NCBI RefSeq assembly: GCF_007845675.1
Contig: NZ_VOBR01000001.1
Span: 62,001-126,000, forward strand
Origin: Lentzea tibetensis
GTDB lineage: Bacteria; Actinomycetota; Actinomycetes; Mycobacteriales; Pseudonocardiaceae
Direction: 5' to 3'
Length of the DNA stretch: 64,000 bases
How positions within the stretch are numbered: position 1 is the first letter of the stretch; each line of letters starts with the position of its first letter. The position numbers and the translations under genes are program-made. The notes below the pieces were generated by a model. That model had not been told where the DNA came from and did not search any database. It saw only the letters and a program-made list of their open reading frames with translations. Positions 29,974-40,774 of this stretch are shown here, piece by piece.

Positions 29974-30407
29974 GCACGCCTCCGATGACCACGTCGAGTT
30001 GCCGCGATGTCTCATCGCTCGACATGTCGTGGGCGTTGCACTCGCGCATTGGCCAAATCGGGTGAACGGAAACCGCTATTTCCCCTCGCTATCACCACGG
30101 GTCACGCGCTCGCCACACAGCGTCAATCGGAATGGTGCGACGGCTAATCGTCCTAACAGGACAGACCTGCCAGAGTCCATAAGGGACGGTTTCGGCCGCC
30201 AGGCAGCGACGCCTGGTAACACGACCGACCTGATGTCCGAAAGACAAACCTTCGTCCGGCCGGAGCGAGCATGAACTTCCATATCGAATGGAATGGAGGT
30301 CTAGTCGTTTGGGCTGATTCTCGTTTGGAGCACTGCCGAGTCGCCCCACAGGTGGCCTACCGTATCGGTACGCTGTGCAATTCGACCGACCGAGGGGGGA
30401 TGGTCGT
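29974..30407 (+). other. Divergent intergenic region between the type VII operon and the conflict operon
   Basis: 434 bp without a convincing gene and lower in G/C than its surroundings. It must carry the promoters of both the leftward 12-gene operon and the rightward VMAP operon, but no clear -35/-10 pair can be fixed by eye. An inverted repeat CCAGGC-N6-GCCTGG lies at 30199-30216. Short open frames here lack a ribosome-binding site and were not accepted. Confidence 0.6.
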
Positions 30408-32810
30408 TTGTTATCCCAGCCGCTGCACCACGCCATTGTCGTCGTCGACGTCGAGAAGTTCGGCGACAAGAAGCGAGGCGACCTGCACCGATCGGAGGTG
30501 CGGGATGGGCTTTTCGCAGCACTGGAGCAGGCATTCGACGAAGCCGAGATCGACTGGTCGGAGTGCAGCTTTCAGACCAGGGGCGACGGCGCTCTGATCC
30601 TCGTCCCGGCAAGGTACTCGGAAAGACAGCTCGTCGACCGCGTGCCCTCGCGGCTCACCGCCGGATTGCTCAGGCACAACGCGAGAGTCGCCGTGGAAGG
30701 GCGTATACGACTGCGCCTCGCATTCCACTCGGGGCCGGTCGAGATAGCCGAGAACGGGAGTGCCGACAGCACGGTCATCTTCGCGTGCAGACTCGTCGAC
30801 TCGGACGAGGCTCGCGAGGCACAACGGGCCTCGAAGGACCTCATCACGATCATCGCGTCCAACAGCTTCTACGAGAACAGCCTCGTCCACGAGCCCGCAG
30901 CCGAGCCCGACACCTACCGGCGAGTCCCGGTGAGCGTCAAGGAGGTAGACACGATCGCGTGGATCCGGTCGACGGCTCCACTGCTCTCCAGCACACTCAC
31001 CCCTGCGACCAAAGGACCCCTGAGCAACCGAGACAGTTCGACCGAAGTGGACGAACTGGCGAACATCCTCCTCGCCGTCCCGCCTCTGCTGCGCGAGGAC
31101 GCGAGGTCTCAGTTGCTCGACCTCCTCCCCAACGGGATGGCCTCCGAGATGCCGCAAAACGTGGATCCCTGGCCCTACACGCGAGCGCTGGCACGTCTCT
31201 GCTTCCAGCACACCGGCGGGCTCGACTACCTGCTCGGCGCGCTCAGAACACTCGGCGCGGAGCCCCGGCAGATTCACCAGCTGGAAGCGCTGCGGTACCG
31301 ATACGTCGGCGTCTCGGAAGAACCGCTGTCCCGACTCACCGAAACACTGTTCCGAATACCGTGCCTGACCGATCCGATGGCGAGCGAGCTCGTCGTCCAC
31401 GGGATGCGCCGGGCCCTCGGCGAGAGGTTCCTCGTCGAGGGACAGCCCGGAACGCTCCAATACGTCTCACACATAGCCTCCCTCTGCTGGCAGAACCCCT
31501 ATCGATTGACAATTCTGATGGGTTTGGTCAGCCGGTTTGGGCCCGAAGCGCCCGCCCTGGCAGACTTGCGCCTCGTCATCGGCGACCTGACCGATTCAGA
31601 GCGGCCGGCCGACACCTTCACGAACCAGCACAGAACCGGGCTTCTAGCGTTGTTGGCGGGCGTAGTTCTCCCCAACGTGGCAGACCTGTACGGCGCCGCG
31701 GGTGGACGGGCTGCGCCCGATCTCGGCGACCACACGACGTATCCGCGCATCCTCCACGCGCTGGAGTCGCTCAACGCGCGGCGGGACGGGCTGCCGCGAA
31801 CCCTGGCGTTCGTCGAACACGTCGCCGCGCACGTCGACTCGGAGCTCAAGATCAAGCTCCAGCAGTGGACGCGGGCGCGGGCCGCGGAGATGGATCTCAT
31901 CGCCGAACTCGCAGACCTGCGAGACGAAGTCCGCCGACAGGCCGCGGCCGCCAACCACTCCCCCTCGGCGAAACCGGTGGCCTACCTCGTGCTCAAGATC
32001 GAACGGGAAGGACCGACCGGCGACCGGTTCCGGCTCACGGACTGGCGACAGCTGGGAGACGAATCGCAGTGGGCGCCGGAACGCGGCAAGGACAGGACGG
32101 GCTCGCTCGACACCACGAAGACCCACGTCGCCTCGTTGATCGAGCGGATCGAGGTCGACTGGGGCGAACGCCGGCCGGACATCCGGATCGAGTTCGTGCT
32201 CGACACCCCGGACCTCAGCTTGGACGTCGACCAGTGGCCGTGGGAGAACGATCCGCACTCCGAGCCGATGGGCTGCCGATACCCGGTCACGGTCCGGAGC
32301 GCGGAGCGGATGAGAGCGCGCAAGTACCACCGGAATTGGCAAGAACGGTGGGATGAGCTCGTGCGCCAACTCCGCCGCGATGGACGGGTCGACACCCGGA
32401 GCTCCCTGCGCGGGTACGGCTCGGGCGACCACGGCGTACGTCAGTTGAGGTCTGCCCTCCACCAACGGCCCGACGTGGTGTCGCTGACGCTCAGCGCACC
32501 CCCGCAGCCGGACGAAGCGGGTGGCGACGAGGTCAGCGTCGGGATCAAGGCGGGGCTGCCGCTCATCTGGTGGCACCGCGAGGACTGCGACCACCCCGAG
32601 TTCACCGAGACGGTCGACCGGCTCCTCCTCGAGGCCGAGGACCAGGACCACCTGTTGCACCGCGTCCGGCACGCCCGCGTGGCCGCGTACGCACAGGCAG
32701 AGGACGAAAAGCACATCGGCGCTTCGCTGACCGTGCTGTACGACGACCCGGCCCGCCTGGTGGTACCGCACCAGCCAGGGCATCCGGTCGTGGAGGGGGC
32801 AGTCGGATGA
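30408..32810 (+). CDS. VMAP-type conflict protein: cyclase-like, EAD2 and VMAP-C domains
   Basis: 800 aa from TTG 30408, which has AGGGGGGA seven bases upstream; GTG 30375 is the other option. Residues 8-190 look like a class III nucleotide cyclase fold with both metal Asp (VVDVEKFG, D14; TRGDGALIL, D60). The usual transition-state Asn is replaced (VIFACRLV). Two helical repeats of the effector-associated domain 2 type follow (ELANILLAVPPLLREDAR; LTETLFRIPCLTDP), then a middle helical region, and a C-terminal alpha/beta VMAP-C region (PVAYLVLKIEREG to the GLPLIWWHRED segment). It is the first gene of a coupled trio with MoxR and a vWA-like protein, the diagnostic arrangement of vWA-MoxR-VMAP systems described by Aravind and co-workers. 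Confidence 0.85.
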   Translation: MLSQPLHHAIVVVDVEKFGDKKRGDLHRSEVRDGLFAALEQAFDEAEIDWSECSFQTRGDGALILVPARYSERQLVDRVPSRLTAGLLRHNARVAVEGRIRLRLAFHSGPVEIAENGSADSTVIFACRLVDSDEAREAQRASKDLITIIASNSFYENSLVHEPAAEPDTYRRVPVSVKEVDTIAWIRSTAPLLSSTLTPATKGPLSNRDSSTEVDELANILLAVPPLLREDARSQLLDLLPNGMASEMPQNVDPWPYTRALARLCFQHTGGLDYLLGALRTLGAEPRQIHQLEALRYRYVGVSEEPLSRLTETLFRIPCLTDPMASELVVHGMRRALGERFLVEGQPGTLQYVSHIASLCWQNPYRLTILMGLVSRFGPEAPALADLRLVIGDLTDSERPADTFTNQHRTGLLALLAGVVLPNVADLYGAAGGRAAPDLGDHTTYPRILHALESLNARRDGLPRTLAFVEHVAAHVDSELKIKLQQWTRARAAEMDLIAELADLRDEVRRQAAAANHSPSAKPVAYLVLKIEREGPTGDRFRLTDWRQLGDESQWAPERGKDRTGSLDTTKTHVASLIERIEVDWGERRPDIRIEFVLDTPDLSLDVDQWPWENDPHSEPMGCRYPVTVRSAERMRARKYHRNWQERWDELVRQLRRDGRVDTRSSLRGYGSGDHGVRQLRSALHQRPDVVSLTLSAPPQPDEAGGDEVSVGIKAGLPLIWWHREDCDHPEFTETVDRLLLEAEDQDHLLHRVRHARVAAYAQAEDEKHIGASLTVLYDDPARLVVPHQPGHPVVEGAVG

Positions 32811-33808
32811 CCACGTGGCACGTGTACCGGGGCGACGGCTCAGTCGCGCAGTCGCCGATCAACAACCTGCCCGCCCCACCCCCGTGGCGCACGTTCACGG
32901 GACAGGGCAACACATCCCGGCCTGATGACGACGGCGGCGAAGGCGATCGCCGGGTGGGGTTCGCACACCGGCACTCCCGCACACCTGATCCCACCGAGGT
33001 GGCGCTCGTCAACGCCGCGATCCACTTGCGACGACCGCTTCTCGTGACGGGCGCCCCTGGCACCGGCAAGTCCTCGCTCGCCTACCTGATCGCGCGCGAG
33101 CTGGGTCTGGGTCCAGTGCTCAGGTGGCCGGTCACCAGCAGGACCACGTTGGCACGGGGGCTCTTCCTCTACGACGCGATCGCGCGGGTCCAGGCCGCCG
33201 CCCACGAGGGCGAGCCCGACATCGGCGACTTCATCCACCTCGGCCCCCTCGGCACGGCCTTGCTTCCGACAGATCTCCCCAGGGTCTTGCTGATCGACGA
33301 ACTCGACAAGGGAGACATAGATCTTCCCAACGACCTCCTCAACGTCTTCGAGGAGGGCGAGTACGAGATACCGGAACTCGTCCGCTACGCCAAGCGGCAG
33401 AACGAGGTCAACGTACTCACCGACGATCGCGGCCACACCGCGACGGTCCACAACGGACTCGTGCGCTGTCGCGAGTTCCCGATCGTCATCGTCACCAGCA
33501 ACGGTGAACGCGAGTTCCCACCGGCCTTCCTCCGTCGTTGCCTCCGCCTCCACATCAAGAACCCCACGACCCAGCAGCTCGGCACCATGGTCGCCGCGCA
33601 CTTCGACGGCAAGGAACGCGCCGACACCAGCCGCCTGATCACCGACTTCCTCGAACGGAGCAGCGAGGTGGGCGGGCTCGCGGCCGACCAGCTGCTCAAC
33701 GCGGTCCACCTCGCCACCAGGCTCGCGACCTCGGGCGCCTACACACCCGACGACGAGTGGAGGGATCTGCTCACCGCCATCTGGCACCCGTTGGCAGATC
33801 AGCGATGA
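32807..33808 (+). CDS. MoxR-type AAA+ ATPase of the conflict operon
   Basis: 333 aa, starting at an ATG that overlaps the VMAP stop (ATGA). Walker A is GAPGTGKSSLAY, Walker B VLLIDELDKGDIDLP, sensor 1 IVIVTSNGEREFPPAF and the arginine finger RRCLRL. The family-typical GLFLYDAIARVQ is present after the P-loop. It differs clearly from the MoxR of the type VII operon and belongs to the group that accompanies VMAP and vWA proteins. Its role is probably to switch or assemble the ternary complex with ATP. It overlaps the next start by 4 bp. Confidence 0.93.
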   Translation: MTTWHVYRGDGSVAQSPINNLPAPPPWRTFTGQGNTSRPDDDGGEGDRRVGFAHRHSRTPDPTEVALVNAAIHLRRPLLVTGAPGTGKSSLAYLIARELGLGPVLRWPVTSRTTLARGLFLYDAIARVQAAAHEGEPDIGDFIHLGPLGTALLPTDLPRVLLIDELDKGDIDLPNDLLNVFEEGEYEIPELVRYAKRQNEVNVLTDDRGHTATVHNGLVRCREFPIVIVTSNGEREFPPAFLRRCLRLHIKNPTTQQLGTMVAAHFDGKERADTSRLITDFLERSSEVGGLAADQLLNAVHLATRLATSGAYTPDDEWRDLLTAIWHPLADQR

Positions 33809-36800
33809 CCGGCCCCCGCGATCGCCTTCCCGTGCCCGAGGTGGTGCTCCAGCACCTCGACATCGCCGACAGCGGCGTCGAACGGCTGACGACGCGCGGT
33901 CTGTCCTATCGGGAGGTTCGCGACAGCCTGTTCCTCGCCGCGCGAATACACGGACGCGACGGCGAACCGGGACAACCGCACGCGCCCACCGGATCCGGTC
34001 CTCCCGAGGACGTCCCGGTTCCTGAGGACCGGAGCAGACCGGAGGCTTCGCCCGCACCCGAACCATCGGGTGCGGGCGGTCCGTCGTTCGGCGGTTTCCA
34101 GCAGTGGACGCCCGGACCGCAGACGATGGTGGCGGGCGGCGTGGACGGTGGACGGGGAGACCGCGCGGGATCCGCGTGGCCGACCATGCCCGCGATGCCG
34201 GAACACCGGGCGATCAGCCGTGAGCTCAGGCCGTTGTCGCGCCCGCACCCGTCGCCGTGGGAGCGGCTCGTCGACGAGGAGACGACGGCGATCCGGGCCG
34301 CGCAGGACGGTCTCTGGGTGCCCGAGTGGAAGGCCGCGCCCTCGCGACGGTTCGACATCGCCCTCGTCGTGGACACGGCCGTGGCCGGAGACCTCTGGGA
34401 GCACACGACCCGCGAGTTCCGCACCATGCTCGAACGGCAGGGCGCGTTCCGCGACGTCCGGACCTACCTGCTCGACACCAGCAGTCCCGAGCTGTCCGAA
34501 CTCCCGTTGCACAGCAGGGGCGGTGCCGCTCACGACTGCGGATACCTCGTCGAGCCCGCGGGCACGCGGATCGTGCTGGTGCTCACCGACACCATCGGCA
34601 AGGCGTGGCACAGCGGCGCGGTCGGCAGCGTGCTGCACGCCTGGGCGCAACGCATGCCCGTGGCGATCGTGCAGACGCTCGCGCAACGGCTGTGGCCGTG
34701 GGGCGGCATCGTCACCCGCCGCATGCGCCTGCACTCCCCGGCACCCGGTGTGCCGAACAAGCAGCTCCGCGTGGAGGGACTGCGCCACCGCGGGGTCATC
34801 CCGGTCCCGGTGCTGAGCCTGTCCGCGGAGTGGATGTCGGGCTGGGCCAGGCTCATCGCGGCACCCGGTGCGCAACAGGTCGAGACGACGGCCACCCTGG
34901 TGAGCGCTCACCCCGAGTCACCGCAGCTCGACGATGACGACGAGACGCTGACCGCGGAGGAGCGTGTCCTGCGTTTTCGCACGTACGCGTCGGTCGACGG
35001 GTTCCACCTGGCGGGCCTTCTCGCGGCGACGCCGCTGACCCCGCCGTTGATGAACCTCGTGCAGCGGGTGTTGCTGCCGGGGTCGGACCTCTCCGTGCTC
35101 GCCGAGGTCATGCTGGGCGGTCTGATGCACCGCGTACCACCGACGGCGCCGGCCGCCAGCGCCGTGACGTACGAGTTCCACGACGGCGTGCGGGAAGAGC
35201 TGCTCGGGACGTGCCGGCGGACGGACACCGCTCGGGTGGCCCGCGTACTCGACGACCACGCGGGCTCCGACATCGCCGCGCTGCGCGATCTTCGCGCCAC
35301 ACTCGACGATCCGAACCACATCCAGGAGCCGGACCTCTCTCCGGAGAACCGGCCGTACCTCGAGGTCCAGGCAGCCGTGTTGCGCGCGCTCGCCGGGCCG
35401 TACTCCCAAAGCGCGGCGCGAGTTCGTGCCGAGCTCGGGCTCACCGTCGTCCCTGAATCGCTGCCCCCCAACGAAGTTTCGGCGCCACGGGACGACGGAC
35501 CTGTTCGACGCGAGCCCTCAGGAGGCATGTACGTGACTGCCATCGACTCCCAGCCGAGCACCGCCCGTAGGGCCGGGGAGCCGCCACAAGCTGAGTCGCC
35601 ACAAGGAGATGGCCAAGTGAGCGCTTCCAGCACGCACACGGCACACGACCGGCGTCCCACCACCGCGCAACCACAGATCTGGGGGTCTGTGCCGTTGCGC
35701 AACCCAGACTTCGTCGGCCGGGCCGAGTTGCTGGAGAAACTCAGGGATCGCCTCAGTGAGCAGGGCACGACCGCCGTGCTCCCCGAGGCGCTGCACGGCA
35801 TGGGCGGTGTCGGGAAGTCGCAGACCGTGGTGGAGTACATCCACCGACATGCGAACGAGTACGACCTCGTGTGGTGGATACCGGCCGAGCAGTCCGCTCA
35901 GATCACGGCCAGCTTCGTCGAGCTCGCCAAACGCCTCGGCGTGGCGACCGCGGGGTCCGCCGACACCGCGGTTCCCGCGGTGCTGGAAGCCCTGCGCATG
36001 TACGACTCCGGGAAGCAATGGCTGCTGGTGTTCGACAACGCGGACAGCCCGCAGGACGTGCAGCAGTTCTTCCCGGCCGGGTCCGGCCACATCGTGGTCA
36101 CCTCCCGCAACTCCGAGTGGCACGGCTTCGCCCGTTCCGTGCAGGTCGACCTGTTCACCCGCGCGGAGAGCATCGAACTGCTGCACCGGCGTGGTGGTGA
36201 CATCGACGACGTCGAGGCGGACGCACTGGCGGAGGCGCTGGGCGATCTGCCACTCGCCGTCGAGCAGGCCGCCGCGTGGCGGGCGACGACCGGCATGCAG
36301 GTGGCGGAGTACCTGGAACTGCTGGAGCAGAACCGCACGGAGCTGCTGAAGCACGGCGGCTCGGAGGACGGCCAGATGCCCGTGGTCGCGGCGGTGTGGA
36401 ACGTTCCGCTGGAACGACTGCGCGACCGCCACCTCGATGCGCTGCAACTGCTGCAGGTCTGCGCGTTCTTCGGGCCGGAACCGATCTCACAGCAGTTGTT
36501 CCGCGGCGTGCGCAACGCCCCGGTACCGGACGACCTGCGCGCGGCGTTGCGCGACCCGATCAAGCTCGGCCGCGCGGTGCGCCAGATCAGCCGGTACAGC
36601 CTCGCGAAGCTGGACCACCGCAACAACTCCCTGCAACTGCACCGGTTGGTGCAGACGGTGCTGAAGAACAGCCTGTCCGAAGAAGAACAGGACACCATGC
36701 GGCACGCGGTGCACGTGCTGCTGGTCAACGGCGATCCCGGCGATCCCGACAACGCCAAGAACTGGTCGCGCTACGGCGAACTGCTCCCCCACGCACTGGT

Positions 36801-38151
36801 GTCGCACGCGGTCGACTGTCAAGACGAGTGGGTCAGGGACCTGATCGACAACCTCGTCGCGTACCTGCTCAACGCCGGCGACTTCGGCGGTGCCCGCGAC
36901 CTCGCCGCGCAAGCCGTGACGTCGTGGACGGAAAAACTGGGTGCCGACTCGACGGACACGCTCGACATGTCGCGGCGGCTCGCGGTGGCGATGCGCAGGC
37001 TCGGTGATGTCGGCTCCGCGATTCGGCTCAACGAGAAAACCCGGCAGCTGCTCGTCGAAAAGGTCGGTGAACAGCACGAGAGCATGCTGGAGATGCTCGA
37101 CGCCGTCGCAGGTGACCGCCGTTCCGAGGGCCGGTTCCGCGAGGAGCTGGAGCTCCAGCAGACGGTGTACGACCGGTCTCGGCAGGTGTACGGCGATGAC
37201 GACCCGACCACGCTGCGGTACGCCCACAACCTCGCGGGCTGTCTGCGTCTCATGGGCGACTTCGCCAGGGCGCGAGAGGTGGACGAGGACAACCTGGAAC
37301 GCCGCACCGCGGTTCTGGGTGCCGATCACTCGCTGACCCTCGGCTCGCGCAACGGCCTGTGCATGGACCTCCGCGAGTGCGGCTTCTACGTCGAGGCCGC
37401 CCGCGACCAGGAACAGGCGCTCGAGTACCAGTTGGAGGTACTGGGCCCCGACCACCCGCGCGTCATCGGCGCGACTCGCAACCTGTCCGTCGCGCTGCGC
37501 AAGGCGGGCCAGCACGTCCGGGCGAAGGAGCTCGCCGAGGAGTGCCTGAAGCGGTACCGGCGCAGGCACGGTGACAACCACGTCGACACGGTGACCGCGC
37601 TCATGAACCTCTCGACGGACCTGCGTCACCTCGGCGATCTCGACCAGTCGCTCGAACTGGCGCAGCGCAGTCACGACCAGTTCAAGGAGATTCGCGGCGC
37701 ACGCCACCCGTACACGCTCATCGCCGGGCTGAACCTGGCTGTGATCCACCGCCTGCGCGGTGATCTCCAGCGCGCGCTGGAGATCGACAGGGCGGCGTAC
37801 GAGGACTTGCTCAACGTCTTCGACGCCGACCACCCGTCGGCTCTGGTCGCCGCGACCAACCTGGCCAGCGACCTCGCCGCGCTGGGCGACGTGGAGCGGG
37901 CCAAGGCCATGGACGAGGACACCATGGCTCGGTGCCGGCGGGTGCTCGGCCCCGAGCACCCGTCGACGCTGGCGGTAGCTCTCAACCTCGCGATCGACAT
38001 GGACACGCTCGGCGACCACACCGGCGCGTCAACACTGCACCGGCAGACCGTCGCGAGCTTCCGCAAGGTACTGGGCGACGACCACCCCGCGACCATCGCG
38101 GCAGCGCAGTACACCAGGGCGAACTGCGACACGGACACCATGCAGCTGTAA
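33805..38151 (+). CDS. vWA-like (SAV_2336 N-terminal), NB-ARC and TPR fusion protein, FxsT-like
   Basis: 1448 aa from ATG 33805. After a disordered N-terminus, residues about 185-345 form a vWA-like SAV_2336 N-terminal domain (RRFDIALVVDTAVAGDL); the metal site is degenerate (DTAVA from D190 instead of DxSxS). A helical region and a Pro-rich linker follow. An NB-ARC/STAND NTPase begins at about 630 with Walker A GMGGVGKSQT (665-674) and LLVFDNADSP. From about 930 the protein is a long array of 42-residue-type TPRs with repeated GxDHPxTL-like phrases. This layout matches the TPR component named in FxSxx-COOH systems. It supplies the vWA partner of the MoxR-VMAP trio and adds a STAND sensor in the same chain. 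Confidence 0.9.
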   Translation: MTGPRDRLPVPEVVLQHLDIADSGVERLTTRGLSYREVRDSLFLAARIHGRDGEPGQPHAPTGSGPPEDVPVPEDRSRPEASPAPEPSGAGGPSFGGFQQWTPGPQTMVAGGVDGGRGDRAGSAWPTMPAMPEHRAISRELRPLSRPHPSPWERLVDEETTAIRAAQDGLWVPEWKAAPSRRFDIALVVDTAVAGDLWEHTTREFRTMLERQGAFRDVRTYLLDTSSPELSELPLHSRGGAAHDCGYLVEPAGTRIVLVLTDTIGKAWHSGAVGSVLHAWAQRMPVAIVQTLAQRLWPWGGIVTRRMRLHSPAPGVPNKQLRVEGLRHRGVIPVPVLSLSAEWMSGWARLIAAPGAQQVETTATLVSAHPESPQLDDDDETLTAEERVLRFRTYASVDGFHLAGLLAATPLTPPLMNLVQRVLLPGSDLSVLAEVMLGGLMHRVPPTAPAASAVTYEFHDGVREELLGTCRRTDTARVARVLDDHAGSDIAALRDLRATLDDPNHIQEPDLSPENRPYLEVQAAVLRALAGPYSQSAARVRAELGLTVVPESLPPNEVSAPRDDGPVRREPSGGMYVTAIDSQPSTARRAGEPPQAESPQGDGQVSASSTHTAHDRRPTTAQPQIWGSVPLRNPDFVGRAELLEKLRDRLSEQGTTAVLPEALHGMGGVGKSQTVVEYIHRHANEYDLVWWIPAEQSAQITASFVELAKRLGVATAGSADTAVPAVLEALRMYDSGKQWLLVFDNADSPQDVQQFFPAGSGHIVVTSRNSEWHGFARSVQVDLFTRAESIELLHRRGGDIDDVEADALAEALGDLPLAVEQAAAWRATTGMQVAEYLELLEQNRTELLKHGGSEDGQMPVVAAVWNVPLERLRDRHLDALQLLQVCAFFGPEPISQQLFRGVRNAPVPDDLRAALRDPIKLGRAVRQISRYSLAKLDHRNNSLQLHRLVQTVLKNSLSEEEQDTMRHAVHVLLVNGDPGDPDNAKNWSRYGELLPHALVSHAVDCQDEWVRDLIDNLVAYLLNAGDFGGARDLAAQAVTSWTEKLGADSTDTLDMSRRLAVAMRRLGDVGSAIRLNEKTRQLLVEKVGEQHESMLEMLDAVAGDRRSEGRFREELELQQTVYDRSRQVYGDDDPTTLRYAHNLAGCLRLMGDFARAREVDEDNLERRTAVLGADHSLTLGSRNGLCMDLRECGFYVEAARDQEQALEYQLEVLGPDHPRVIGATRNLSVALRKAGQHVRAKELAEECLKRYRRRHGDNHVDTVTALMNLSTDLRHLGDLDQSLELAQRSHDQFKEIRGARHPYTLIAGLNLAVIHRLRGDLQRALEIDRAAYEDLLNVFDADHPSALVAATNLASDLAALGDVERAKAMDEDTMARCRRVLGPEHPSTLAVALNLAIDMDTLGDHTGASTLHRQTVASFRKVLGDDHPATIAAAQYTRANCDTDTMQL

Positions 38152-38189
38152 CCGGCTGTCAGCCGGCGGCCTGGTCGAGCCAGGCCGCC
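38152..38189. terminator. Hairpins between convergent operons
   Basis: Right after the TAA of the TPR gene there is CCGGCT-GTC-AGCCGG (38152-38166), followed by a perfect 10-bp stem GGCGGCCTGG-TCGAG-CCAGGCCGCC (38165-38189) that also encodes the end of the convergent hydroxylase gene. No U-tract is present, as is usual in high-GC actinobacteria. A bidirectional terminator is likely. Confidence 0.55.
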
Positions 38190-39910
38190 AGCTGACCCGG
38201 ATCCGGAGCTCGTCCAGTGCTCGCGGCCACGGACCGGCGGACCGCGCGCACCACCTCGGGCAGCCGTCGCAACGCGGTGGAGTCCAGCGCCAGTGCGAGT
38301 CCGGACCACGCGGTGACGTCCTCTGGCGCCACGTCCAGCCGGGTGGTGAAGCACTCCGCCGCACGGTCCATGTCGCCGCTCAGGAAGGCGGCTTCCGCGT
38401 CGTCCACCACGCCCAGCGCGGCGAACCGCTCAGGGTCGACCACCCTCGCCTTGATCAGCGTCGCGAGAGTCGTCCGGCCGGTCTCCGGTGATGTGGCGAC
38501 GAGATCCGCGCGGCACAGGCGGCTCGGGCCGCGCTTCTCGATCCACGCATCGGTCAACGCGGCCACCACGTCCTCATCCGGTCGCACGTGGCGCAGCCGC
38601 CACACCCCGCGGTGGGCCGCGATGATCCACTCGATCGCCTCGGTCACCTCTCCCGGTACACCGAGCAGCGGGCACGCGGCCAGCCGCACCGAGACGGCGG
38701 CGACGAACGTCCTGCCCAGATCCGTCAGCTCCGGTGCACCGCTCAGCGTGCGCACGACCTGAGCGACCTGGTGGCGGCGGTACGCGAAGTTGAAGTGGGC
38801 CCTGCGAACCAGTGACGCGGGCACCAGGTCGCGTTGCAGGTACCAGAACTCCACGACGCTGCAGAACGCGTAGAGGCCGTGCAGCAGGCCCGTCACCGGC
38901 CTCGGGTGGTCCAGCCACGGCGCGTAGAACCGGCAGACGTCGTCGTCCTCGCACAGCACCACCAGATCGAGCAGTGCATTCACCTTCGAGTGCTGGATCT
39001 CGTGCACCAGCGCCTCGGCGAACTCGAGCGCCGAACGCTTGGGCGACATCGCTATGCAGCCGAACGCCGCGGTGGACGACGCGGCGAACACCTGCTGTTC
39101 GACGCTCAACGGGACCACCGCGGCAAGGCAGGCCGACAACTCGTCCGCGCATTCGGGGTGACAGGCCGTCAACAGATCCCACGCCTCGTCCATGAGTTTG
39201 CGCCATTCAGCGCTCTCCTGGTCAGAAAGTGGCCCGGCTGGGAGCGGCGCAGTGAACTCGCGATACGGATCCAAGTCGTCGAAAACCAGTTCCACGATCC
39301 GGCCGCGAGCCGCGGCGCGGTGCCTTTTCACCGGTTCCAGCGGCGGAGACGTGGTTCTTCCCAGCACGGTCAGCGTCAAGCCGTGCCGCGTATTGCGCAG
39401 AATCGCGTGGCCGACCGGAAAGCTCGTGGCAATCCGGAACGCACCGACGGACGGCAGCATCACCGCTCCGTGCACGACCGGCACGACGATCTCGAACAAC
39501 AGGCCACTTCGGACGGCCGCCGCTGCCGCGACCAGGTGGAACACTCCCACCTCGGACCACAATGGCGTCGTGTCCAGCGCCATTCCCAGCACCTGTCGCA
39601 GCGCACGGCTGAGCCACACGCCCACCATCGGGTACATCAGCACGTCTTCGACGACCTCGGGCGATGTCCGTTCCGCTTCGGCGAGCAGGTCCCACGCGCT
39701 TTCCACCTCGGCGAACGGGCCCTGCTGGTCCACCGTTGCCGCAGCCTCCTCCGCGAACGTCCTCAGCCGCAGCTTCCGGAGGCTGTACTGCCCGTTGCGC
39801 AACACGGTGATGCCCTCACGGGACACCGAGCCGTCGCAGATCTGGTCGAACACGAAACGCGGCAGGTGGTGCGTTGTCACCCCGGCCGGGTTCGCATCGC
39901 CTCTAGTCAC
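38159..39910 (-). CDS. HExxH-type putative peptide beta-hydroxylase
   Basis: 583 aa, start GTG 39910 with AGGGG four bases upstream; it overlaps the end of the precursor gene by 8 bp. The metal motif is ALVHEIQHSKVNALLDL (H303, E304, H307), followed by the family's FYAPWLDHPRPVTGLLHGLYAF. This is the mod_HExxH family that accompanies FxsB radical SAM enzymes and FxSxx-COOH peptides; fused rSAM/alphaKG-HExxH enzymes have been shown to beta-hydroxylate cyclophane peptides. The protein is full length and has the key residues, so activity is plausible. There is no radical SAM gene in the window. Its own precursor is probably the small gene overlapping upstream. The last 150 residues are a helical, TPR-like tail. 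Confidence 0.88.
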   Translation of the reverse strand: MTRGDANPAGVTTHHLPRFVFDQICDGSVSREGITVLRNGQYSLRKLRLRTFAEEAAATVDQQGPFAEVESAWDLLAEAERTSPEVVEDVLMYPMVGVWLSRALRQVLGMALDTTPLWSEVGVFHLVAAAAAVRSGLLFEIVVPVVHGAVMLPSVGAFRIATSFPVGHAILRNTRHGLTLTVLGRTTSPPLEPVKRHRAAARGRIVELVFDDLDPYREFTAPLPAGPLSDQESAEWRKLMDEAWDLLTACHPECADELSACLAAVVPLSVEQQVFAASSTAAFGCIAMSPKRSALEFAEALVHEIQHSKVNALLDLVVLCEDDDVCRFYAPWLDHPRPVTGLLHGLYAFCSVVEFWYLQRDLVPASLVRRAHFNFAYRRHQVAQVVRTLSGAPELTDLGRTFVAAVSVRLAACPLLGVPGEVTEAIEWIIAAHRGVWRLRHVRPDEDVVAALTDAWIEKRGPSRLCRADLVATSPETGRTTLATLIKARVVDPERFAALGVVDDAEAAFLSGDMDRAAECFTTRLDVAPEDVTAWSGLALALDSTALRRLPEVVRAVRRSVAASTGRAPDPGQLAAWLDQAAG

Positions 39911-40115
39911 GCTGCCCCTGAATGGAATCGCCGAACCTGCCGAGCCTCGCCTCGGCGATGGTCGACCGAATCGCCTTGTCCAGCAACGGAGTGCGCAGCG
40001 TTCGGAGATCGGACAAGTACACCTGAGTGAGATCAGGCAACTTCGACGAGAGATTGGCTGGTGAGTCCGTTGCTGTCACGTCGACTGCCTCCCCACACTC
40101 GCCCGCTGTTTCCAT
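39903..40115 (-). CDS. FxSxx-like RiPP precursor peptide candidate
   Basis: 70 codons from ATG 40115, ending RFGDSIQGQRD. The middle KLPDLTQVYLSDLRTLRTP and a following amphipathic helix (LLDKAIRSTIAEARL) match the leader layout of FxSxx-COOH precursors. The tail has F-G-D-S instead of the exact F-x-S-x-x at the end, so it is a variant. The stop TAG lies inside GTGACTAG, which includes the hydroxylase start, so precursor and enzyme are translationally coupled. The start is uncertain: an in-frame ATG at 40244, 2 bp after the sortase stop, would add 43 residues with atypical codon use. No strong ribosome-binding site precedes 40115. Confidence 0.7.
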   Translation of the reverse strand: METAGECGEAVDVTATDSPANLSSKLPDLTQVYLSDLRTLRTPLLDKAIRSTIAEARLGRFGDSIQGQRD

Positions 40116-40246: not shown

Positions 40247-40774
40247 TCAACTCTTGAGGACGGCCTCGACGATCACGTTCTGGCGGTAGCTGCCCGCCGC
40301 CTGGTCGAACTCGCCGCCACACGTCACCAGGCGCAGCTCGGACACCGGGGTCGGCGAGTACACGAGGTCGGTCGGGAACGCGGTCTTCTCGACGGCGTAG
40401 GTCTTGCCGACCACGAACGTCAGGTGGCTGCCGTCCTTGCGGTCCACGAAGACCTCGTCGCCGGCCTTGAGCTCGGGCAGGCGGTAGAAGACGCCGGGGC
40501 CGGTGCGCGAGTCGACGTGGCCCGCGATGAGCGCTGGGCCCGCGTCGCCCGGTGCGACGCCGGCGGAGTACCAGCCCGCGACGGACGCCTTCGTCGGTGG
40601 CACGAGTGCGCCCGCCTTGTCGACGGACAGGCCTTCCAGCGAGCTGGTGACGCCGATGGACGGGATGCGCACGGTCACCGGGGCTGCTGCGTGAGGGGCG
40701 GCGGCGTGGGGTTTCACGGCGTAGGCGAGTGCGACGACCACGGCCGCGCCCAGCACGAGCTTGACCTTGTTCAT
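40247..40774 (-). CDS. Class F-type sortase
   Basis: 175 aa: an N-terminal membrane anchor (residues 5-20), an Ala/Pro/His linker and a compact sortase domain. The catalytic residues are H86 (LIAGHVDS), C152 (RLVTCGGEFD) and R164 (SYRQNVIVEA), in the order and spacing typical of actinobacterial class F enzymes. It lies 7 bp downstream of a DUF4397 surface protein with a sorting-signal-like C-terminus, probably its substrate. It would attach that protein to peptidoglycan outside the membrane. Confidence 0.9.
   Translation of the reverse strand: MNKVKLVLGAAVVVALAYAVKPHAAAPHAAAPVTVRIPSIGVTSSLEGLSVDKAGALVPPTKASVAGWYSAGVAPGDAGPALIAGHVDSRTGPGVFYRLPELKAGDEVFVDRKDGSHLTFVVGKTYAVEKTAFPTDLVYSPTPVSELRLVTCGGEFDQAAGSYRQNVIVEAVLKS

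Follow-up and report, generated by a model that had tools for sequence, protein, structure and literature searches.

A VMAP-linked HExxH enzyme and peptide gene pair in Lentzea tibetensis: probable peptide hydroxylation without a radical SAM enzyme

A 64,000-nucleotide stretch of the Lentzea tibetensis genome (contig NZ_VOBR01000001.1, positions 62,001 to 126,000; hereafter the window) carries an HExxH enzyme gene that overlaps a short peptide gene and converges with the operon of a VMAP ternary conflict system. We put at about 0.6 the probability that the pair is a module for a ribosomally synthesized and post-translationally modified peptide (RiPP) that belongs to this conflict system and lacks a radical S-adenosylmethionine (SAM) enzyme such as the maturase FxsB. 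The tail of the peptide would be hydroxylated, and the modified peptide would act on the neighbouring proteins. The hydroxylation part draws on the fold and family of the enzyme, the conservation of the tail throughout an enzyme clade and the joint decay of both in three relatives. The signalling part draws on the gene context and on a proposal in the accessible part of Kaur et al. 2020 (PMC7159879) that the processed peptide of such modules is a toxin or a signal.

The enzyme and its overlapping peptide gene

The enzyme gene occupies 38159..39910 of the reverse strand (583 aa, GTG start). Its product scored 151.9 bits on TIGR04267 (mod_HExxH, alpha-ketoglutarate (aKG)-HExxH-type peptide beta-hydroxylase; cut-off 40). 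The metal-binding motif HEIQH at residues 303-307 (38990..39004, reverse strand) is intact, with H303, E304 and H307 as named in an earlier reading made from the letters of this stretch (the sequence-only reading). The FxsBH model NF040587 gave 111.5 bits, under its cut-off of 225. About residues 16-431 matched in structure the fold of SjiH (PDB 22nu, 22ob) and ChlH (8s5f), HExxH domains of radical SAM proteins; unlike both, the window enzyme adds a TPR-like helical C-terminal domain (about residues 440-583). According to the accessible part of PMC12636437, the aKG oxygenase ChlH installs beta-hydroxyl groups on Asp and His in a peptide that already bears a cyclophane, and it depends on this ring being there; the window system is without FxsB.

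The precursor peptide gene was placed at 39903..40079 of the reverse strand, with 58 codons from a GTG start and GGGGAGG just upstream. The 70-codon version given by the sequence-only reading, from ATG 40115, is less likely, judging by the ribosome-binding-site pattern and the same placement of the start in many relatives. The overlap claimed there was confirmed: the 8 nt GTGACTAG join the end of the precursor stop (39903) to the enzyme start. The 58-aa product is VTATDSPANLSSKLPDLTQVYLSDLRTLRTPLLDKAIRSTIAEARLGRFGDSIQGQRD, with the leader S-x-L-x-D-L-T...L-x-x-L-R and the tail GRFGDSIQGQRD. The tail region (39903..39944, reverse strand) was predicted to be unstructured and contains the Q-x-Q pair, Q54 and Q56 of 58, together with D51. 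The small open reading frame (ORF) is real, as its homologues adjoin homologous enzymes. Moreover, nonsynonymous change was below synonymous change (pN < pS) in 105/105 precursor pairs at 45-90% amino acid identity, pairs that are not independent of one another. The lack of conservation that might have undone the sequence-only reading was thus not seen.

The peptide ends in DSIQGQRD and not in FxSxx, an ending also absent from all tails of its clade (0/35), and the FxSxx-COOH precursor model TIGR04268 had no match to the window peptide at E <= 10. The departure from the FxSxx consensus noted previously is therefore genuine.

Tail classes and the enzyme tree

For comparison, 100 loci of up to 20 kb were used: 90 hand-picked from the better places among the homologues (left out were, for instance, G163:C1:3757321, G085, G157 and G094) and 10 adjacent to FxsB. 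Some of them end early at contig ends. Together with the window, these 101 loci yielded 107 HExxH frames. Peptides were called by tail regular expressions complemented by a profile, and an adjoining one was called for 92 frames; the other 15 comprised 12 in FxsB loci and 3 in decayed loci.

A profile built without any FxsB-locus peptide found a precursor-like gene in four FxsB loci, 0.9-1.3 kb before the HExxH frame and upstream of FxsB (E 1.8e-11 to 4.7e-15). By this sequence comparison, the window-type and FxSxx-COOH leaders are homologous, and the likeness described in the sequence-only reading is one of descent. Two precursors outside the clade of the window scored 40.6 and 51 bits on TIGR04268, the tested one of these four giving 51 bits. 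At E <= 1 the model also reached 19/35 Q-x-Q precursors (best 2.2e-7) and 16/27 R-x-D precursors (best 5.9e-6), presumably through the leader.

The 92 peptides fell into the tail classes [DN]x[VI]QxQ (35), R-x-D-COOH (27), GGH-like (12) and LITC-like (6), with 12 others. In the Q-x-Q class, A36, Q54 and Q56 are invariant (35/35), and D16, L22 and R26 nearly so. The first Gln lies 36-38 residues past the leader Asp in 27/35 peptides, and the position three residues ahead of it, D51 in the window precursor, is often acidic. The Q-x-Q is followed by 1-10 residues of varied sequence (directly by Arg in 12/35 tails), so its distance to the C terminus is not fixed, unlike in FxSxx-COOH peptides. The F-G-D core suggested by the sequence-only reading had to be abandoned, as its Phe is not conserved in the clade and invariance in the tail is confined to Q54 and Q56. 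A cyclophane would require an aromatic residue, and none is conserved in the tail across the Q-x-Q class. Tails ending in LITC or LIKC form another FxsB-free class, seen in the genus of the window (L086, L089, L091, L092, L095, L109), with the enzyme signature Q344/D354. Three loci (L072, L073, L074) hold tandem Q-x-Q modules; in each of them a second enzyme-peptide pair lies at a distance of about 9 kb from the first.

Since the Q-x-Q class was defined by Q-x-Q itself, the enzyme tree served as an independent test. In a quick tree of 106 enzymes (one short row dropped), the tail label changed 10 times, compared to a mean of 60.8 for shuffled labels. All 35 Q-x-Q enzymes grouped in one clade of 38 (Shimodaira-Hasegawa-like approximate likelihood ratio test, SH-aLRT, 100), and R-x-D tails were found in another enzyme clade. 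An extended tree with 49 further enzymes from named genomes (four FxsB-locus rows dropped) contained a corresponding clade of 40, consisting of 37 Q-x-Q members and the same three remaining enzymes, L084, L085 and L090. In these three, HExxH has become RExxH and the small gene, known by weak profile matches (E 0.88, 8.2 and 2.2, respectively), has the tail DLVHERCD. None of their loci gave a match for VMAP, MoxR, vWA or AP-ATPase-TPR; the neighbours in L084 are amylase, lytic polysaccharide monooxygenase and transposase-like genes. Enzyme and tail appear to have decayed together, which is consistent with Q-x-Q being the target of the enzyme.

Enzyme positions 344/354 also followed the tail: H/E in 35/35 Q-x-Q, Q/A or Q/M in 24/27 R-x-D, Q/E in 12/12 GGH-like and Q/D in 6/6 LITC-like enzymes. 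Because a tail class is for the most part also an enzyme clade, the pattern is a pointer and not proof. H344 and E354 were considered from conservation as candidates for the third metal ligand, but vary between tail classes. One locus, L124, falls in the R-x-D enzyme clade, yet its enzyme carries E354 and its tail lacks R-x-D; an independent co-change of enzyme and tail is possible there.

FxsB, the conflict-system operon and distribution

The sequence-only reading had found no FxsB in the window, and five FxsB frames used as tblastn queries (E <= 1e-20) agreed: they matched in the 10 comparison loci only and not in the 90 others or the window. Homologues of the peptide thus adjoin HExxH genes where FxsB is missing. 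In the own genome (9.36 Mb in 105 contigs, 98.7% complete), no FxsB passed the cut-off (best 34.2 bits vs 370), so the FxsB elsewhere in the genome that had been named as a possible refutation did not emerge. None of the 16 radical SAM matches of the genome lies on the 524-kb contig of the window; three SPASM radical SAM matches are on contigs C31, C21 and C19. Within the family of the window, an enzyme homologue (E <= 1e-20) occurs in 112/298 genomes and FxsB over cut-off in 54/298. FxsB over cut-off is missing from 17/29 genomes with the Q-x-Q tail class. The other 12 carry it either on a different contig or no closer to the module than about 249 kb; in at least 9 of those, among the matches listed, another HExxH match stands directly beside FxsB.

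The operon convergent with the pair, unused in the sequence-only reading, names the system: it is a VMAP ternary conflict system at 30375-38151. On the forward strand, it encodes a VMAP protein with EAD2, VMAP-M0 and VMAP-C (30375..32810, start not refined), a MoxR-type AAA ATPase (32807..33808), overlapping at its start with the end of the VMAP gene, and a vWA (SAV_2336 N-terminal)-AP-ATPase (NB-ARC)-TPR protein (33805..38151) that scored 887 bits on the NCBIfam model FxSxx_TPR. Stops and starts within the operon overlap, and its last gene, in which the SAV_2336 N-terminal, NB-ARC and TPR parts share one frame, ends 7 bp from the enzyme stop. VMAP, MoxR and vWA thus accompany an HExxH gene and a small protein, as in VMAP-ternary peptide processing. 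A known anti-phage system was considered and set aside, since PADLOC matches were weak and on MoxR only (best 25 bits). The class F sortase gene directly upstream of the peptide gene (40247-40774, reverse strand) was likewise rejected as part of the module; tblastn (E <= 1e-5) found no match to it in the loci of the 100 relatives.

As described in the accessible part of Kaur et al. (PMC7159879), the VMAP-linked peptide-processing modules consist of a zincin-like metallopeptidase gene and a small protein, with tails of FxSxx, RxD, acidic or FtsH type. The FxSxx type comes with a radical-SAM-SPASM gene, the FtsH type with a radical SAM gene of another kind, and an AP-ATPase-vWA fusion occurs in the RxD and acidic types. 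The window agrees with that account in its HExxH gene and rapidly diverging small protein beside VMAP, MoxR and vWA, and in its AP-ATPase-TPR fused to vWA. Among the three VMAP-linked tail types, FxSxx is the only one for which the accessible text names a radical SAM gene, so a missing FxsB is what it would predict for a non-FxSxx VMAP module such as this one. The tail GRFGDSIQGQRD differs in that its Q-x-Q matches none of the published types as worded there; we set it apart by those descriptions. The window shares with FxSxx-COOH precursor (TIGR04268)/FxsB (TIGR04269) systems the homologous leader and a nearby HExxH enzyme and FxSxx_TPR-type protein. Unlike them, its tail is D-x-[VI]-Q-x-Q with a variable end, it has no FxsB and its peptide is unmatched by TIGR04268.

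Full-length matches to the Q-x-Q precursor profile came from 6/397 genomes of the order, and all six belong to the family of the window. Seven further matches (E <= 1e-5) end at or before position 50/58, four of them within 270 nt of FxsB. Across the class, the enzyme at E <= 1e-60 was found in 22/394 genomes, counting the own genome. A peptide was called in 22/23 class-wide loci outside it; some end in FQSSI, and no Q-x-Q was seen by eye among the 22. Named hosts of the clade include Saccharothrix, Actinosynnema, Kibdelosporangium, Saccharopolyspora, Amycolatopsis and Actinophytocola (among the matches listed). A scan of named genomes with a single protein as query confirmed no relative. The alignment scan did confirm relatives; it used one pattern, PWR[DE]DPRP, which misses genes without R333, such as that of the window itself. 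The own genome also carries a second, much diverged aKG-HExxH gene (G000:C55:362548-363042; L010, L255:8063-9376; 437 aa, 71.5 bits on TIGR04267), and by eye no obvious partner peptide stood in the surrounding ORF list.

Proposed reaction and its alternatives

The sequence-only reading took known HExxH enzymes to work with FxsB. That this is always so is not supported by the accessible account of the non-FxSxx VMAP modules (PMC7159879), nor by PflC/PosC (PMC12636437) and PesO (PMC13060819), aKG-HExxH enzymes acting on RiPP precursors for which the accessible texts mention no FxsB. In the case of PflC/PosC, beta-hydroxylation falls on consecutive Gln, a target shared with the reaction proposed here, and a C-terminal ARMD is removed oxidatively; PesO hydroxylates Pro, and the earlier targets listed with it are His, Asp, Phe and Gln. 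Their clusters differ, containing multinuclear non-heme iron-dependent oxidative enzymes (MNIO), GNAT proteins, transporters or an asparagine-synthetase-like enzyme, with no conflict-system neighbours mentioned in the accessible parts.

An aKG-HExxH enzyme, a precursor with an FxSxx-like leader and no FxsB together point to hydroxylation that probably proceeds without a radical SAM step. This part of the hydroxylation-only route put forward in the sequence-only reading stood; the reaction itself is predicted from sequence and fold. The chemistry of ChlH, PflC/PosC and PesO, as far as the accessible reports describe it, suggests how leader-guided hydroxylation of Gln or Asp might occur without a cyclophane. 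The 58-aa precursor would dock on the enzyme through its helical leader, and its flexible tail would reach the iron site. There, 2-oxoglutarate and oxygen would serve for the beta-hydroxylation of one or both glutamines of V/I-Q-x-Q, or of the Asp just ahead, no cyclophane having been formed beforehand. The neighbouring vWA-AP-ATPase-TPR/MoxR/VMAP machine, a STAND-type sensor, may then receive the modified peptide as a signal, a ligand or an effector.

Three other readings were weighed. Kaur et al., in the accessible text, name the enzyme a peptidase, which would cut the small protein and release its C-terminal peptide as a zincin-like metallopeptidase. We consider this unlikely for the window enzyme, read here as a hydroxylase. 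The structural comparison gave two strong matches, SjiH and ChlH, and the entry for ChlH is titled an aKG-dependent oxygenase; M1 peptidase matches fall in the range that the tool rates as common. Moreover, the RxD class mostly has Ala or Met, and the LITC-like class Asp, in place of E354, which might be a gluzincin-type ligand. An oxidative backbone cleavage would retain the oxygenase chemistry: alpha-hydroxylation just past the glutamines, with loss of the last residues and a C-terminal amide left behind. The removal of ARMD after a Gln string by PflC/PosC (accessible part of PMC12636437) speaks for it, as do the Q-G-Q-R-D of the window tail, the Arg directly after Q-x-Q in about a third of the clade and the R-x-D-ending peptides of the other enzyme clade (27 rows). 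The varied residues past Q-x-Q argue against it, and we regard it as rather improbable. We give very little credence to the third reading, in which one of the three SPASM enzymes on C31, C21 and C19 also modifies the peptide. It is opposed by the lack of FxsB over cut-off here and in 17 of the 29 module-bearing genomes, by the contig of the window being free of radical SAM matches, and by the tail, which conserves no aromatic residue for a cyclophane.

Several observations nevertheless weigh against the radical-SAM-free hydroxylation module proposed here. As the three SPASM matches are on other contigs, action in trans is conceivable. HExxH and Q-x-Q were lost together in a single event, shared by three near relatives; because these also lack the system genes, the loss may reflect general decay. 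Two V-L-Q-N-Q tails (L190, L196) belong to enzymes outside the Q-x-Q clade, and the 344/354 pattern may reflect descent only. Instead of marking the modified site, Q-x-Q could function as a motif for recognition or for a receptor. Finally, the window enzyme has Leu at 333 and His at 335, where R333 and D335 each occur in 101/107 frames. Three relatives (L052, L053, L059) share L333, with His or Tyr at 335; the two changes co-occur, as if a salt bridge had been lost.

Literature searches, judged by their listings and with most subscription journals out of reach, turned up no paper that deals with a Q-x-Q class or with VMAP-linked hydroxylase activity. The kind of arrangement seen in this soil actinobacterium, with a tiny peptide gene and an iron enzyme beside an immune-like sensor system, had been described before; the tail class and the probable chemistry look new. 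Q-x-Q is apparently a tail class of the published module that was previously not set apart. Hydroxylase chemistry is better supported than the published peptidase chemistry, and we argue that the "peptidases" of non-FxSxx VMAP systems are hydroxylases. We must also note that the NCBI FxSxx-COOH model partly covers Q-x-Q peptides and may mislabel them as cyclophane-containing in the absence of FxsB or FxSxx. For a module that was known but had not been studied, a direct test is now within reach, with two small genes, a predicted +16 Da and a predicted residue; the module ties peptide hydroxylation to a STAND/NLR-like conflict system. Speculatively, 2-oxoglutarate- and oxygen-dependent hydroxylation of a Gln-pair peptide might license or silence an NLR-like (AP-ATPase-TPR) immune sensor. 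If so, it would be a bacterial parallel to hydroxylation-based signalling, with the peptide tail class of each enzyme clade as a specific signal.
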